IMG/VR virus record: IMGVR_UViG_3300003794_000015
Coordinates: 1-22,464 of that record
Length of the DNA stretch: 22,464 bases
Direction: 5' to 3' (one strand)
Source of the DNA: a virus
Under the pieces are notes generated by a model. It worked only from the letters and a program-made list of their open reading frames with translations. It was not told the origin of the DNA and made no database searches. Made by a program: the position numbers and the translations under genes. Shown piece after piece: positions 10,557 through 16,898 of the stretch; the first letter of the stretch is position 1, and every line of letters begins with the position of its first letter.

Positions 10557-10880
10557 TTACTTCTGTGCAGCTTGCTTCTTGATGTTTGCCAGGTACGTCG
10601 ATGCGCCGGCTTTTGACAGCCTTGCTTGCTCCATGAATGCCTTCAGGATCTCCTGACGAGAAGCTGATTTCATCTTGGAGTAGATATCCCGGGCGATATC
10701 TGCCTTCGACGCTCCCTCTTTGGTCTTAGGTGGCAGTGCCTTCTGCGAAGACGGCTTCACCATGACGCGCGCAGCTTTAGCCGAGATCACTGCCTTCGGC
10801 ACGACTTTCGAAGGAGCGCGTTTCTTCGCTACGGGAGCAGTCTTCCTAGCGACGGGCTTGGTTGCTTTGGGCGTGGCCAT
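10557..10880 (-). CDS. Histone H1-like basic protein with C-terminal helical domain
   Basis: The 107-aa product has two parts. Residues 1-55 are a Lys/Ala/Pro-rich tail (PKATKPVARKTAPVAKKRAP), like the tails of H1-like nucleoid proteins. Residues 60-105 form a compact helical domain (KADIARDIYSKMKSASRQEI, then AFMEQARLSKAGASTYLANI), a pattern I associate with small winged-helix-like proteins of phages and plasmids. ATG 10880 follows GGAGGA at 7 nt. A terminator follows. A DNA-compacting or regulatory role is inferred from composition; no enzymatic motif is present. The gene stands alone between accessory genes. Confidence 0.65.
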   Translation of the reverse strand: MATPKATKPVARKTAPVAKKRAPSKVVPKAVISAKAARVMVKPSSQKALPPKTKEGASKADIARDIYSKMKSASRQEILKAFMEQARLSKAGASTYLANIKKQAAQK

Positions 10881-11743: not shown

Positions 11744-12532
11744 TCATGGACGTTTACCTGGATCGATCTTAATCTCTTGCAAATGTACCCGATACGCCTT
11801 TACAAGAGAATCAGGCATAAACACAAGCTTCTCAATGTCATCCAACATCTCAGGATATAGATAAAGCACTGGATTCTGTGCATTCAATCGCCATTGCGCT
11901 CTAATCATCTTTCTCGCACGCCCTGCATACATTGGATTTTGCCAGATAAGCGCAGGGCGGCTGGGGTGATCTTTCTTCTTCATTACCCCTTCTAACAATC
12001 CACCGTTGATCCTGAACAAATGTGGTGCGCCAACGCTACTTTCAGTCACATCCTTCCAAGCTTTGTCAGCGACCGCTTGATTGGGAGATGAGGGAGGAAG
12101 CCAGAAGACCTTAAAGATTTGGCAATATCGACGCAACTCCCACACAGTGCGGTCGAGGTCCAACAGTGGATATCCATGTATGGAATACGGAACCTCTAAG
12201 TATCTGAATTTACCCACATTGGCTAGATGGGCGATGTACCTACGCGAGCTTTCCGACAGATCAATTTTGAATGGCAGCTTCTCGCATAGCGCCAATGCCC
12301 TATCAAGCTCATGCCCGATCTTTTTTGCAGGAATCCGATTATAGAGAAGTATTGACTTGAGGTACTTTTCAATCGCCTGCTGAGCCGACCAGAGATATTG
12401 CGGATAGAGTTCCTGCTTGCAGGCTAGACGCGCCAGGATGTAATCCCTATCCGCTTGATCACGAAACGATTGCGTGGCGAACGAGTTCACGAAGCGCTCA
12501 TGTTTATCTCGAGCATTGACATATCCGACCAT
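11744..12532 (-). CDS. HEPN-domain protein, candidate RNase or toxin
   Basis: The 262-aa product carries a HEPN-like four-helix segment at about 28-110. It reads DRDYILARLACKQELYPQYL, then WSAQQAIEKYLKSILLYNRI and KKIGHELDRALAL. The QQAIEKYLK and GHEL blocks are characteristic of the superfamily. An R-x4-H arrangement is present in RRYIAH (Arg97, His102), the motif linked to metal-independent RNase activity in active HEPN proteins. The C-terminal half is not recognised. ATG 12532 follows GGGAG at 7 nt; it starts 12 nt after the zinc-ribbon gene ends, so the two are probably co-transcribed. The DNA is clearly AT-richer than the head genes. A defence or toxin role is inference; no MNT nucleotidyltransferase partner is adjacent. 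Confidence 0.6.
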   Translation of the reverse strand: MVGYVNARDKHERFVNSFATQSFRDQADRDYILARLACKQELYPQYLWSAQQAIEKYLKSILLYNRIPAKKIGHELDRALALCEKLPFKIDLSESSRRYIAHLANVGKFRYLEVPYSIHGYPLLDLDRTVWELRRYCQIFKVFWLPPSSPNQAVADKAWKDVTESSVGAPHLFRINGGLLEGVMKKKDHPSRPALIWQNPMYAGRARKMIRAQWRLNAQNPVLYLYPEMLDDIEKLVFMPDSLVKAYRVHLQEIKIDPGKRP

Positions 12533-12544
12533 CAACGATCTCCC

Positions 12545-13084: not shown

Positions 13085-13519
13085 ATGAACACACTACCTG
13101 CTGTAAATCAACAAGAGATCGCGCGGCGGATTACTATGGCGCTAGCGAAAATTGCGAACTACAAGGAGAGGATAGCGGACATTGAGCGGTTGCTGAACGA
13201 CGCAAAGAACGAGTTTGACACCGTATCAGCAATCGTCAACTATGCGGAGGCCCATGAACGTCGACGCACCTTATTAGTTGGACTGTTCGTATATCCGAAC
13301 GACTATGGTGATTTCGAACCTGAGTCCCCCGACTTGGTCGTGCAGTTTCGGGAACGACTGACCTTCCTTGAAGGCTCGATGGACTCGTATGAGCGAAAGA
13401 TTAAGCGGCGCCGCGACGGCATTAGTTTAATGGAACGCGACATTGAACTATTGAAGAAGATCCAGCTACACTATTCACGGTCGCCATTCGCCCACATGGG
13501 CATTGTGGACGGAGCGTAG
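13085..13519 (+). CDS. Coiled-coil hypothetical protein next to the origin region
   Basis: The 144-aa product begins MNTLPAVNQQEIARRITMAL and is mostly helical. It has an N-terminal coiled coil (about 10-60) and a second helical pair (about 95-130; SYERKIKRRRDGISLMERDI), separated by a loop (VYPNDYGDFEPESPDLV). No enzymatic motif is seen. ATG 13085 follows GAGG at 8 nt. It is the only plus-strand gene in the middle of the window and abuts the AATACRG repeat cluster within 3 nt of its stop. A role in replication control is suggested by position only. Confidence 0.6.
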   Translation: MNTLPAVNQQEIARRITMALAKIANYKERIADIERLLNDAKNEFDTVSAIVNYAEAHERRRTLLVGLFVYPNDYGDFEPESPDLVVQFRERLTFLEGSMDSYERKIKRRRDGISLMERDIELLKKIQLHYSRSPFAHMGIVDGA

Positions 13520-13521
13520 AA

Positions 13522-13783
13522 GGAATACGGTGAAATACAGTGGAATGCAGCACCGTATTCGTTTTATCCCGCATGAACAGTGGAGAAAATACGGCAAATA
13601 CAGTAAATACGGTACTTTTATATAAATTGGATAGACCGCCAATAGTAGAGAGATAGAGAGGCGCTTTTACTGTATTTGCTGTATTTACCCTATTCCGCCA
13701 CCTCTAACTCCGCGTCAACACAGGGCTTTTTCAAGTCCACGAGGACCGGCTCACAGTATTCCACCGTATTCCCGCTGTATTCC
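13522..13783. other. Candidate replication origin: AATACRG repeats in inverted halves
   Basis: About 13 copies or variants of an 11-nt element (GGAATACGGTG / CAAATACAGTA type) lie in four clusters. Copies at 13522, 13532 and 13542 and at 13587, 13595 and 13604 point right; there is an opposite copy at 13551-13561. Copies at 13668, 13678 and 13687 and at 13752, 13762 and 13773 point left. Spacing within clusters is 8-11 nt, about one helical turn. Between the two halves is an AT-rich stretch (13614-13660, with TTTTATATAAATT) that could melt. The region lies between genes, immediately downstream of the VapE-like ATPase and PrimPol. Iterons beside their own initiator are known from satellite phage P4 and many plasmids; origin function here is inference. 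Confidence 0.6.
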
Positions 13784-13812
13784 TATCGTCTTTCAACGCT
13801 GTCAAAAGGAAA

Positions 13813-13830
13813 GCCGCCCGGTGGGGCGGC
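13813..13830 (-). terminator. Rho-independent terminator of the replication operon
   Basis: GCCGCCC-4 nt-GGGCGGC gives a 7-bp GC stem followed on the minus strand by TTTCCTTTTG. It lies 30 nt after the ATPase stop and would keep replication transcripts out of the repeat cluster. Confidence 0.8.
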
Positions 13831-13859
13831 TTCATCACCTGGACGGGCGGGACAACGAT

Positions 13860-15236
13860 TTAGGCAGCGTCCAGCGTGCGGTCGAACGCATTCCACTGCT
13901 TCTTGACGACGACATGGAACTTCTTGTTCGTCGCCGTCTTGAACCCGTTCACGCTCAGCCACTTGCCAACCTCGCCGGCATCCTTCGCCGACGGGCTCAT
14001 CGTTCCTGTGACGCGCTGGATGATCTGAGTTGCGTTCAGCTTCTCGATCGTTGCTGCTGCCTTCTTCAGTTCATCACCGACGACGACCAGCGGCGGAGCC
14101 TTATACGGATCGACGATCGCATCGGAGATCATGTCGATCAGCGGCATCGGCCGCTCGAACCGCTTGTTGCTGTCATACAGCTCCTGGCGTTCGGACGGAT
14201 CGAACCAGAACTGCTCGCCAGCTCTGTACGCCGCGTACACCTGCGCCCACAGTTGCTGAATGTCGATCTCCTTGACCCTGCGGACCGCCTGGACCGCGAT
14301 GTTCCAGTACCGGCGGTTCTCGCCGGTCTCAGGGAGGAACTGCTCGTCGTTAACTGTCGCGCAAATGCCGGTCCGGCGTGGATAGCTGTTGATCGACTTG
14401 GCATACGGCGGCCTGAAATCGTCGTTCTTCTTCGTCAGCCAGGCGCGAAGAGCTGCGACGTCGCTCTTGCGGAAGATGCTGTCGAGCTCACCCAGCTCAA
14501 CGATCCAGTGGCTGACAACAAGTGCAACGCTGTCCTTGTTGTTCGGATCGAGGCTCAGGCCGTCCTGGAAGAACTTGCTGCGCGGCGGCACAAGACTCGC
14601 GAAGAACTGCGTCTTGCTGAGCCCCTGATTGCCTTGGAGGACGAGGACGCCTTCGGTGCCAAGGAAACCGCGTTCGCGATGCTCATCGCTTTCGAACGGA
14701 GTGCCGTGCATCAGCAACGCGACGTTTGCAATCATCCAGCGGCGTACGATCTTTTCCTTCAGAGCGGTACTGAAATCGTCGGTCTCAACAATCGCGTCGT
14801 AGACGCATTGAAGGCGATCGGTGCCGTCCCACTCGGCGCTGAGGATCCAGTCGCGCGCTGGGTGATATGCATGGTCAGCGCCAATCATCACAAGGTTGCT
14901 GACGGCGACTTCGTGCGGGTACTGCTGCTTGCGAGCGCAGTCTGCGACGTACTCGAATGACTCGTTCCGCTGCGTGTCGGCGAAGAAGTCTCGGCCGGAT
15001 GCCTTGATCTCCAGCTCCTTCGTCATCTCGTTGTACCTGCATGTGATCCCGTAATGGGCAAGAAGCGCCTCGGTGTTCTCCTTGCATCCGACTGGCCTAG
15101 GCTCACCACGCCCGTTTGCGCGAACGATCGGGAAGTCGCAGTCCGTATCGTTGATCTCGGCTTCGAGCGCAGCCCTCTCCGCTTCAAGCTCTGCCAACCG
15201 CCTTGCGCGGTCATGCTTGTTCGTTGCGCTGCTCAT
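13860..15236 (-). CDS. VapE/VirE-family P-loop ATPase, probable replicative helicase-like protein
   Basis: The 458-aa protein belongs by motif to the virulence-associated E family, P-loop ATPases found in many prophages next to primases. Walker A is VLQGNQGLSKTQFF (Gly202 to Thr209), and the Walker B-like acidic segment is HWIVELGELDSI (about 243-253). It is followed by an RAWLTKKNDDFRPPYAKSIN block and a conserved arginine pair in ETGENRRYWNI (about 304-313), likely sensor/finger residues. The N-terminus has a coiled coil (about 8-28). The family is thought to unwind DNA at initiation, by analogy to D5-like helicases. ATG 15236 overlaps the PrimPol stop (ATGA) behind AAGGAG at 5 nt, so the two are translationally coupled. 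A terminator and repeat cluster follow. Confidence 0.85.
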   Translation of the reverse strand: MSSATNKHDRARRLAELEAERAALEAEINDTDCDFPIVRANGRGEPRPVGCKENTEALLAHYGITCRYNEMTKELEIKASGRDFFADTQRNESFEYVADCARKQQYPHEVAVSNLVMIGADHAYHPARDWILSAEWDGTDRLQCVYDAIVETDDFSTALKEKIVRRWMIANVALLMHGTPFESDEHRERGFLGTEGVLVLQGNQGLSKTQFFASLVPPRSKFFQDGLSLDPNNKDSVALVVSHWIVELGELDSIFRKSDVAALRAWLTKKNDDFRPPYAKSINSYPRRTGICATVNDEQFLPETGENRRYWNIAVQAVRRVKEIDIQQLWAQVYAAYRAGEQFWFDPSERQELYDSNKRFERPMPLIDMISDAIVDPYKAPPLVVVGDELKKAAATIEKLNATQIIQRVTGTMSPSAKDAGEVGKWLSVNGFKTATNKKFHVVVKKQWNAFDRTLDAA

Positions 15237-16111
15237 GTCAGCTCCTTGATTTGTTGTTTGAGTTGTTCAAGGCGGGCGTTGATCTTGGCCGCCTTCACCC
15301 TGTCGATCACGCGCTTTTCAGTGATCCAGCTCGTGTCGCATGCCGAGCAATACAGGACGCCAAAGCCCGCATCCTTCCGCCAGAACGCGGCGCTCGCCGA
15401 CTTGTCGTCGTGGAATGGGCAGCGGCAGATGTACTTCCCGCCGACCTCAGTCTGCTCAAGCGTGATGTGAGGGCTGGAACGGAAGCCGACGACAAGCGAC
15501 CACGGCAGGCGATAGCTGCCGTCAACCTTCGACGATGGCCTAGCGATCGGCTTGTCGATCGGACCGTAGTGGGACGCCAGAGCGAAAGCCCAGTCCGCCG
15601 AGCCCACGCCTGTTGTCATCGCGGCTGGCGCCCACCGGTACGCACCGACATCCGTCCTCGACGGCGGCAGGACGACGTAACCGCCATCACCGCGGATGTC
15701 GATCCCTTCGAGCACATTTGCGCGATTCGACACCCGCCGCGAGCGGTCATACGCAACGTAGACGTGCGCACCGCCTGACGGGGTCTGAACCGTCTTCGTA
15801 TCGATCTGTGGATCGTCCGTCGTCGCTGTCAGGAACTGCTGCAGCGCCCTGCGGCCGTTCTTGTCGTTCTTCATGTCGATGTCGATCACCCAGACGGAAG
15901 ACGCTGCGCCGGTCGCGAGCCCGATGTTTGCGTCTGGATGTTCAGCCCACCATGCCTCAATCGCCGAGCAATCACTGGAGGCGTCCTTGTGGCCGCGGGA
16001 ACCGGCGAGCGGCACCTTGGTGCCGGGGGTGAGAGGGAACACGCGCCAACCGAGCGACGCGTAGTGAAGCGCCCACTGCTTGATGGGCGACTGTTCGGAT
16101 AATTCGTTCAT
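15233..16111 (-). CDS. Primase-polymerase (PrimPol) with CHC2-like zinc finger
   Basis: The 292-aa protein begins with the bifunctional primase/polymerase domain (about 10-185). Motifs are the catalytic acid pair VWVIDIDM (Asp77, Asp79), the SGGAHVY motif (Ser112 to His116) and GIDIRGDGGYVVLPPS with a third acid (Asp138). The C-terminal part holds a zinc finger like that of DnaG primases, CRCPFHDDKSAS with Cys231 and His234, then YCSACD with Cys255 and Cys258. It would prime DNA synthesis at the phage origin. I chose ATG 16111 because AGGA lies 5 nt upstream and the family N-terminus starts here; the open frame runs 25 codons further but that part is non-conserved. The CHC2-like finger after the PrimPol domain is an uncommon order. 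Confidence 0.85.
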   Translation of the reverse strand: MNELSEQSPIKQWALHYASLGWRVFPLTPGTKVPLAGSRGHKDASSDCSAIEAWWAEHPDANIGLATGAASSVWVIDIDMKNDKNGRRALQQFLTATTDDPQIDTKTVQTPSGGAHVYVAYDRSRRVSNRANVLEGIDIRGDGGYVVLPPSRTDVGAYRWAPAAMTTGVGSADWAFALASHYGPIDKPIARPSSKVDGSYRLPWSLVVGFRSSPHITLEQTEVGGKYICRCPFHDDKSASAAFWRKDAGFGVLYCSACDTSWITEKRVIDRVKAAKINARLEQLKQQIKELT

Positions 16112-16131
16112 CCTGGTCCTTTGATAGGGGC

Positions 16132-16206
16132 CGGCCCAAGCTCCAAGACCGCGGCAACGGTAGAACAGGACGGATGCATTGCGCACCCTTAACGGAGCTT
16201 GGGCCG
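16132..16206. promoter_or_regulatory. 13-bp perfect inverted repeat upstream of PrimPol
   Basis: CGGCCCAAGCTCC (16132-16144) and its exact complement GGAGCTTGGGCCG (16194-16206) flank 49 nt. The structure lies 20 nt upstream of the PrimPol start on the minus strand. In RNA it would make a long strong stem ending close to the ribosome-binding site; in DNA it could bind a dimeric regulator with spaced sites. Which one applies cannot be told from sequence. Confidence 0.6.
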
Positions 16207-16353: not shown

Positions 16354-16890
16354 CTACCAAAGAGCGCGCGCTTCCAACTGGTCCACGATCCTCTCGTACT
16401 CTTCTCTTGTTGGTGGTCGATCGTGTTTCCACAGCGATAGCACCAGTTTGGCTCGCCTCTCACACTGCTCCGGCGTAGAACGGTCGCGAGGTCGAGGGAC
16501 GTGCTCGCAGGTATCCCTCTTCTTCCGTCCTTTCCCTGTCTGGATAAGCGCGCGCAGTTCGCGGTCCTTCCAATCAGTATTTCGGCTGAGACCGCTGACA
16601 CTATTTGTCAGATGGAACCTGTACGACAGTTGGTCGATCCACCACGCTTCGAGGTCAGCGAGTTGATCGACGGGACACTGGTCGACGACCTTCGCGGAGA
16701 TCGTCTGCCCTTCGTTGAGCAGCGCTCGAATGTGGCCACACTTATGCGTGCTACCACCTCGGCGCGCTTCGCTGAGATGCTGTCTCAAGCGTTTTACAGG
16801 GTCGATTGAATGACCACAGTAGAACGGTCTGTTGTCGTTCCCGTGCAAAACATAGATGTACTCAAGCTCTTCTGCTCGCTGTTGTCCCAT
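16354..16890 (-). CDS. GIY-YIG nuclease (free-standing homing endonuclease-like)
   Basis: The 178-aa product has a GIY-YIG domain in the first 90 residues. The two tyrosine motifs are in EYIYVLHG and FYCGHS, then DPVKRLRQHLSEARRG with the conserved arginine and a metal-binding glutamate in ADLEAWWIDQL. The basic C-terminal region (about 100-178; KDRELRALIQTGKGRKKRD) could bind DNA. I chose ATG 16890 because GGAG lies 6 nt upstream; a TTG two codons earlier is less likely. It stands alone between the small early genes and PrimPol. No intron splice signal or split exon is evident, so it is probably free-standing, a mobile gene inserted into the replication module. Confidence 0.75.
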   Translation of the reverse strand: MGQQRAEELEYIYVLHGNDNRPFYCGHSIDPVKRLRQHLSEARRGGSTHKCGHIRALLNEGQTISAKVVDQCPVDQLADLEAWWIDQLSYRFHLTNSVSGLSRNTDWKDRELRALIQTGKGRKKRDTCEHVPRPRDRSTPEQCERRAKLVLSLWKHDRPPTREEYERIVDQLEARALW

Positions 16891-16898
16891 CTGCAACT

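Follow-up and report, generated by a model that had tools for sequence, protein, structure and literature searches.

The stretch of viral DNA analysed here (hereafter the window, 22,464 nt) encodes a PrimPol-VapE replication module, in which a VapE-domain (SF3/AAA+) helicase of 458 aa and putative initiator (13860–15236, − strand; Pfam PF05272, 6e-48) follows an AEP primase-polymerase (PrimPol) of 317 aa (15233–16186, − strand; Pfam PF09250, 7.2e-39), the two genes overlapping by 4 nt within one operon. Elsewhere the window carries genes for a terminase, a portal with relatives in Myxococcus phage Mx8 and Stenotrophomonas phage BUCT555, a major head protein, a tail/adaptor protein and a tyrosine integrase, indicating that it is a fragment of a temperate phage rather than a satellite. 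Directly behind the VapE gene lies a repeat array, bordered on its other side by a convergent ORF of 144 aa (13085–13519, + strand) with no match in Pfam or PHROG. Between the VapE stop codon and the array is a terminator-like hairpin of the VapE gene (13811–13832, − strand); the first iteron of the array lies 76 nt past that stop, and the centre of the array about 207 nt past it. The intergenic placement behind a coupled PrimPol/VapE operon given in a preliminary description of this DNA is thus confirmed. A second contig, identical across 11,431 bases, carries the same array.

The array comprises 13 AATACRG-type 7-mers (≤1 mismatch) between 13524 and 13781, ten exact and three with one mismatch, arranged as four triplet clusters plus one extra copy. 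The outer left cluster (13524–13550, + strand) consists of AATACGG, AATACAG and AATGCAG starting at 13524, 13534 and 13544 (step 10), and the inner left cluster (13588–13612, + strand) has units starting at 13588, 13597 and 13606 (step 9). These are mirrored by an inner right cluster (13670–13694, − strand; starts 13670, 13679 and 13688, step 9) and an outer right cluster (13754–13781, − strand; starts 13754, 13764 and 13775, steps 10 and 11). Six units on the + strand and six on the − strand therefore flank the array centre, the left two clusters pointing right and the right two pointing left. The inward-facing halves described previously hold for 12 of the 13 units, the exception being the extra copy beside the outer left cluster (13553–13559, − strand), which points the other way; one more match, at 13717 and with one mismatch, probably arose by chance. 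The reported count of at least 13 copies in four clusters with a spacing of about one helical turn is borne out, with steps of 9–11 nt and repeat numbers far above those of shuffled sequence. Exact AATACRG occurs ten times within 13522–13783 compared with three times across the remainder of the 22.5 kb, and 5000 dinucleotide shuffles of the array stretch gave a mean of 0.109 copies and a maximum of three. Consistent with this, the array scored 15 when repeated, phased 8-mers were counted by a detector, compared with at most 6 in 1000 shuffles.

Between the two halves, a central spacer (13613–13669) holds the AT-rich run ACTTTTATATAAATT and is a candidate melting site. AT content is 61% at 13617–13665 and 74% in the best 50-nt stretch, compared with 44% for the whole window; because the figure varies with the size of stretch chosen, we term the centre only moderately AT-rich, which tempers the earlier description of an AT-rich core. 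No GC-skew turning point was found at the array in the skew of the window, where gene orientation masks skew, and a search of phage records for DNA similar to the array region returned no match. Scans of IMG/VR for AATACRG arrays identified a single two-strand array accompanied by VapE, on the contig identical to that of the window, so that the letters AATACRG appear private to this phage. The remaining dense AATACRG matches in IMG/VR are essentially one-strand, mostly in a 9-nt register, and probably coding. Among them, long one-strand repeats in a 9-nt register on three unrelated viral contigs (L222:8080–8428, L211:7328–7418 and L219:14353–14443) are probably protein repeats unrelated to the window array.

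VapE relatives were gathered from phages, IMG/VR and a one-genome-per-species collection of bacteria and archaea, giving 168 loci. Stringent two-strand arrays, defined by thresholds set for this survey as at least two phased same-unit pairs per strand, were present in 40 of these, and 29 of the 40 fall 0–500 nt past the VapE stop, where the window array also sits. No other 500-nt bin holds more than three, and across the 168 loci there were none at 500–1000 nt past the stop and none in the 2.5 kb upstream. Capsid relatives of the window phage (portal 44–68% identical) lack VapE and PrimPol; they were dropped as close relatives for comparing arrays and used as controls, and none of the 27 portal-related control loci without VapE (5309 windows) contained a two-strand array. 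Dereplication at 70% identity, used for dereplicated counts only, removed near-identical loci and left 95, of which 43 beat all 40 of their shuffles on a softer score directly 3′ of VapE (about 2.3 expected), compared with 7 of 94 control stretches taken from other parts of these loci. Roughly half of the VapE loci have no detectable array directly 3′ of VapE, and some of these carry one elsewhere. The arrays are spread over the VapE tree, from Pseudomonadota to Bacillota and Synergistota, and their repeat letters vary between elements. A hairpin with a T-run occurs within 140 nt of the VapE stop in 11 of 32 loci; a terminator behind VapE is common but not general. Recurrence of the same architecture directly 3′ of VapE across a large family supports, by sequence comparison, the candidate origin proposed in the preliminary description.

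Arrays are also present in relatives with the same replication genes, where their absence had been named as evidence against an origin. L044, which encodes the closest sister of the window VapE, has a detector score of only 9, its shuffles reaching 8, and inspection by eye revealed TCATCT/AGATGA repeats flanking a very AT-rich centre immediately past the VapE gene, with a virion gene following the array. With unit positions called after matrix refinement, a four-cluster layout like that of the window was found in L191, L135, L154 and L145, the unit of L135 being read from the other strand. In L191, for example, three right-pointing, one left-pointing and three right-pointing units precede the centre, and two left-pointing, one right-pointing and three left-pointing units follow it. 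All four loci also have a reversed copy near an outer cluster, the counterpart of that at 13553. Units per side number six and six in the window and L135, six and five in L191, and five and six in L154, other loci having fewer or mixed units; a six-plus-six rule may hold for a subset of loci and is not a law.

Some array-bearing VapE modules come from bacterial genomes. Those of L135 and L131 have tyrosine integrases nearby, and a scan of a few of their neighbouring genes revealed no virion genes; the neighbours scanned around the L191 module likewise included no virion gene. All three are possibly satellites or other integrative elements. In Pseudomonas mendocina FFL34, a symmetric CGTGGTGG array (L187:10387–10646) immediately precedes the gene for a Mu-like transposase and is about 2.2 kb past a PrimPol-VapE gene; an array of this sort would be unusual in a phage that transposes replicatively.

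The VapE protein is a plausible binder of the repeats. A structure model (pLDDT 90, from a 60-sequence alignment) has as its best solved match PriRep1 with dsDNA (7pds), at Z 24.6 over residues 30–445, the C-terminal domain included, followed at Z 14 by the NrS-1 phage primase-helicase and at Z <12 by the SaPI5, poxvirus and asfarvirus helicases. We take PriRep1 to be the SaPI1 protein, the PDB title giving PriRep1 alone. Together with a profile match (E 1.4e-45), the predicted fold suggests that the window VapE is a self-loading, SaPI-like Rep helicase whose C-terminal domain would bind DNA. Among array-bearing loci, iteron similarity correlates with identity of the VapE C-terminal domain, which in the window protein spans about residues 365–458 (rho 0.34, 0/1000 permutations). 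After dereplication the correlation is 0.19 for the C-terminal domain (p 0.003) and 0.12 for the VapE core (p 0.06); with the C-terminal domain controlled for, nothing further is contributed by the core (partial 0.02). Iteron letters may thus tend to track the C-terminal domain, the correlation being weak and in the expected direction.

The preliminary description regarded the arrangement as not well described, which does not stand, as SaPI/PICI origins and P4 crr already have it. In the Pri-Rep-ori arrangement of SaPIs and PICIs, established experimentally, the primase gene precedes the rep helicase gene and the origin comes directly 3′ of the latter (PMC6092414, PMC7581432). The window likewise has its array directly 3′ of the putative initiator helicase gene and a primase gene before it, the helicase having a predicted PriRep1 fold. 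In contrast to these elements it encodes a terminase, portal and capsid, and it is not a PICI because PICIs lack structural genes; its array also differs in consisting of four triplet clusters and in its iteron letters. In P4, which we read as a positive control, the crr repeats occupy the stretch 46–345 nt past the alpha stop, beyond the terminator of that gene; the softer detector scores crr at 12 (at most 10 in 200 shuffles), and the stringent two-strand test misses it. P4 crr is a proven cis-required region, and P4 shares with the window short iterons in both orientations behind a primase-helicase gene and its terminator. Unlike the window module, P4 alpha is a helicase fused to a bacterial-type (Toprim) primase (PMC4234260), P4 requires two sites (ori and crr), and its crr consists of two 120-bp direct repeats with the type I iteron GGTGAACA; the window has AATACRG in place of GGTGAACA and no 120-bp direct repeat. 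As SaPI/PICI origins and P4 crr share its layout, the window array is best viewed as a putative origin of this kind with private letters.

Further comparisons are afforded by phages with fused PrimPol-VapE proteins. Pseudomonas phage Persinger (TGACCACC), Escherichia phage vB_EcoM-ep3 (TGGTCACC), Burkholderia phage Mica (TTGTCACC) and Vibrio phage 1.009.O (TTGAGCCC) have intergenic two-strand arrays with steps of 9–12 nt, as in the window, and those of Persinger and 1.009.O also face inward. Their iterons differ from those of the window, and their arrays are placed either 2–3 kb past the primase gene or shortly before it; in the annotated stretches examined, no origin is marked at any of the four arrays. 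For plasmid pRN1 and phage BIP-1 an origin has been proposed 3′ of a gene for a PrimPol-SF3 helicase with a C-terminal DNA-binding domain, in a position like that of the window array but with a large stem-loop in place of iterons (PMC4234260).

We posit, with a probability of roughly 0.86, that 13522–13783 serves a temperate podovirus-like phage as its cis-acting origin of replication, with VapE as initiator, facing hexamers and priming by PrimPol. The array, its position and its recurrence beside VapE genes are direct observations, and the helicase fold and PriRep1 match are modelled. The C-terminal domain of VapE would bind the iterons, one set of six per side, and this binding would load two hexameric helicase rings facing each other, which may melt the AT-rich centre; PrimPol from the coupled gene would then prime both strands, giving bidirectional forks. 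Several observations count against this origin model: the AT-richness of the centre is only moderate, the exact six-plus-six count is common to few loci, roughly half of the VapE loci lack a detectable array directly 3′ of the gene, the GC skew does not turn at the array, and the correlation between iteron letters and the C-terminal domain is weak. An elaboration that we advance tentatively, and consider rather doubtful, is that each half is a loading platform of six iterons in two triplets, one iteron per hexamer subunit, that the facing halves assemble a double hexamer, and that the reversed single iteron is a conserved accessory site. Such 6+6(+1) arrays would form a distinct origin class with unrelated letters (the window and L135, with small deviations in L191, L154 and L145).

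P4 has both an ori and a crr, and it is crr that lies behind alpha, so the window array could instead be a crr-like second site, required in cis for replication, with initiation taking place at another array outside the contig. The contig is indeed a fragment, portal relatives occurring on contigs of up to about 37 kb. We consider this unlikely, as the 22.5 kb contain no second AATACRG cluster (three stray copies) and SaPIs and PICIs need no more than the one site 3′ of rep (PMC6092414). Still less probable is that a protein other than VapE, such as a regulator, a ParB-like protein, an integrase or an excision factor, uses the repeats as its operators or partition sites. Repeated sites are typical of such proteins, and phages Mica and Mano encode ParB-like proteins; however, the flanking genes converge, so that no promoter is expected there and an operator role can be set aside, VapE is the only protein family near the array common to the window and the array loci, and iteron letters appear to track its C-terminal domain and not its core. 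A chance or non-functional tandem repeat, for which AATACRG repeats in other viral contigs might speak were they not all essentially one-strand, is refuted by the two-strand symmetry, the shuffle statistics and the placement conserved across the family.

Within the open-access literature compared, the addition to the cited SaPI/PICI work is the presence of these arrays in phages that encode their own virions, among them Persinger, vB_EcoM-ep3, Mica and 1.009.O: comparable arrays, differing in letters, lie beside VapE helicases in virion-bearing phages and in other integrative elements. Looking for an array beside VapE offers a simple origin prediction in many unannotated phages and prophages, and the natural array variants a ready set for studying how helicases recognise and load on DNA.

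Three further genes of the window merit mention. A small basic Lys/Ala/Pro-rich protein of 107 aa (10557–10880) resembles a histone-like tail and has no family match. A protein of 180 aa with a GIY-YIG nuclease domain (16354–16896), possibly a homing endonuclease, is encoded directly upstream of the PrimPol gene on the same strand. Finally, a HEPN-domain protein of 263 aa (11744–12535) may have a defence or toxin-type function.
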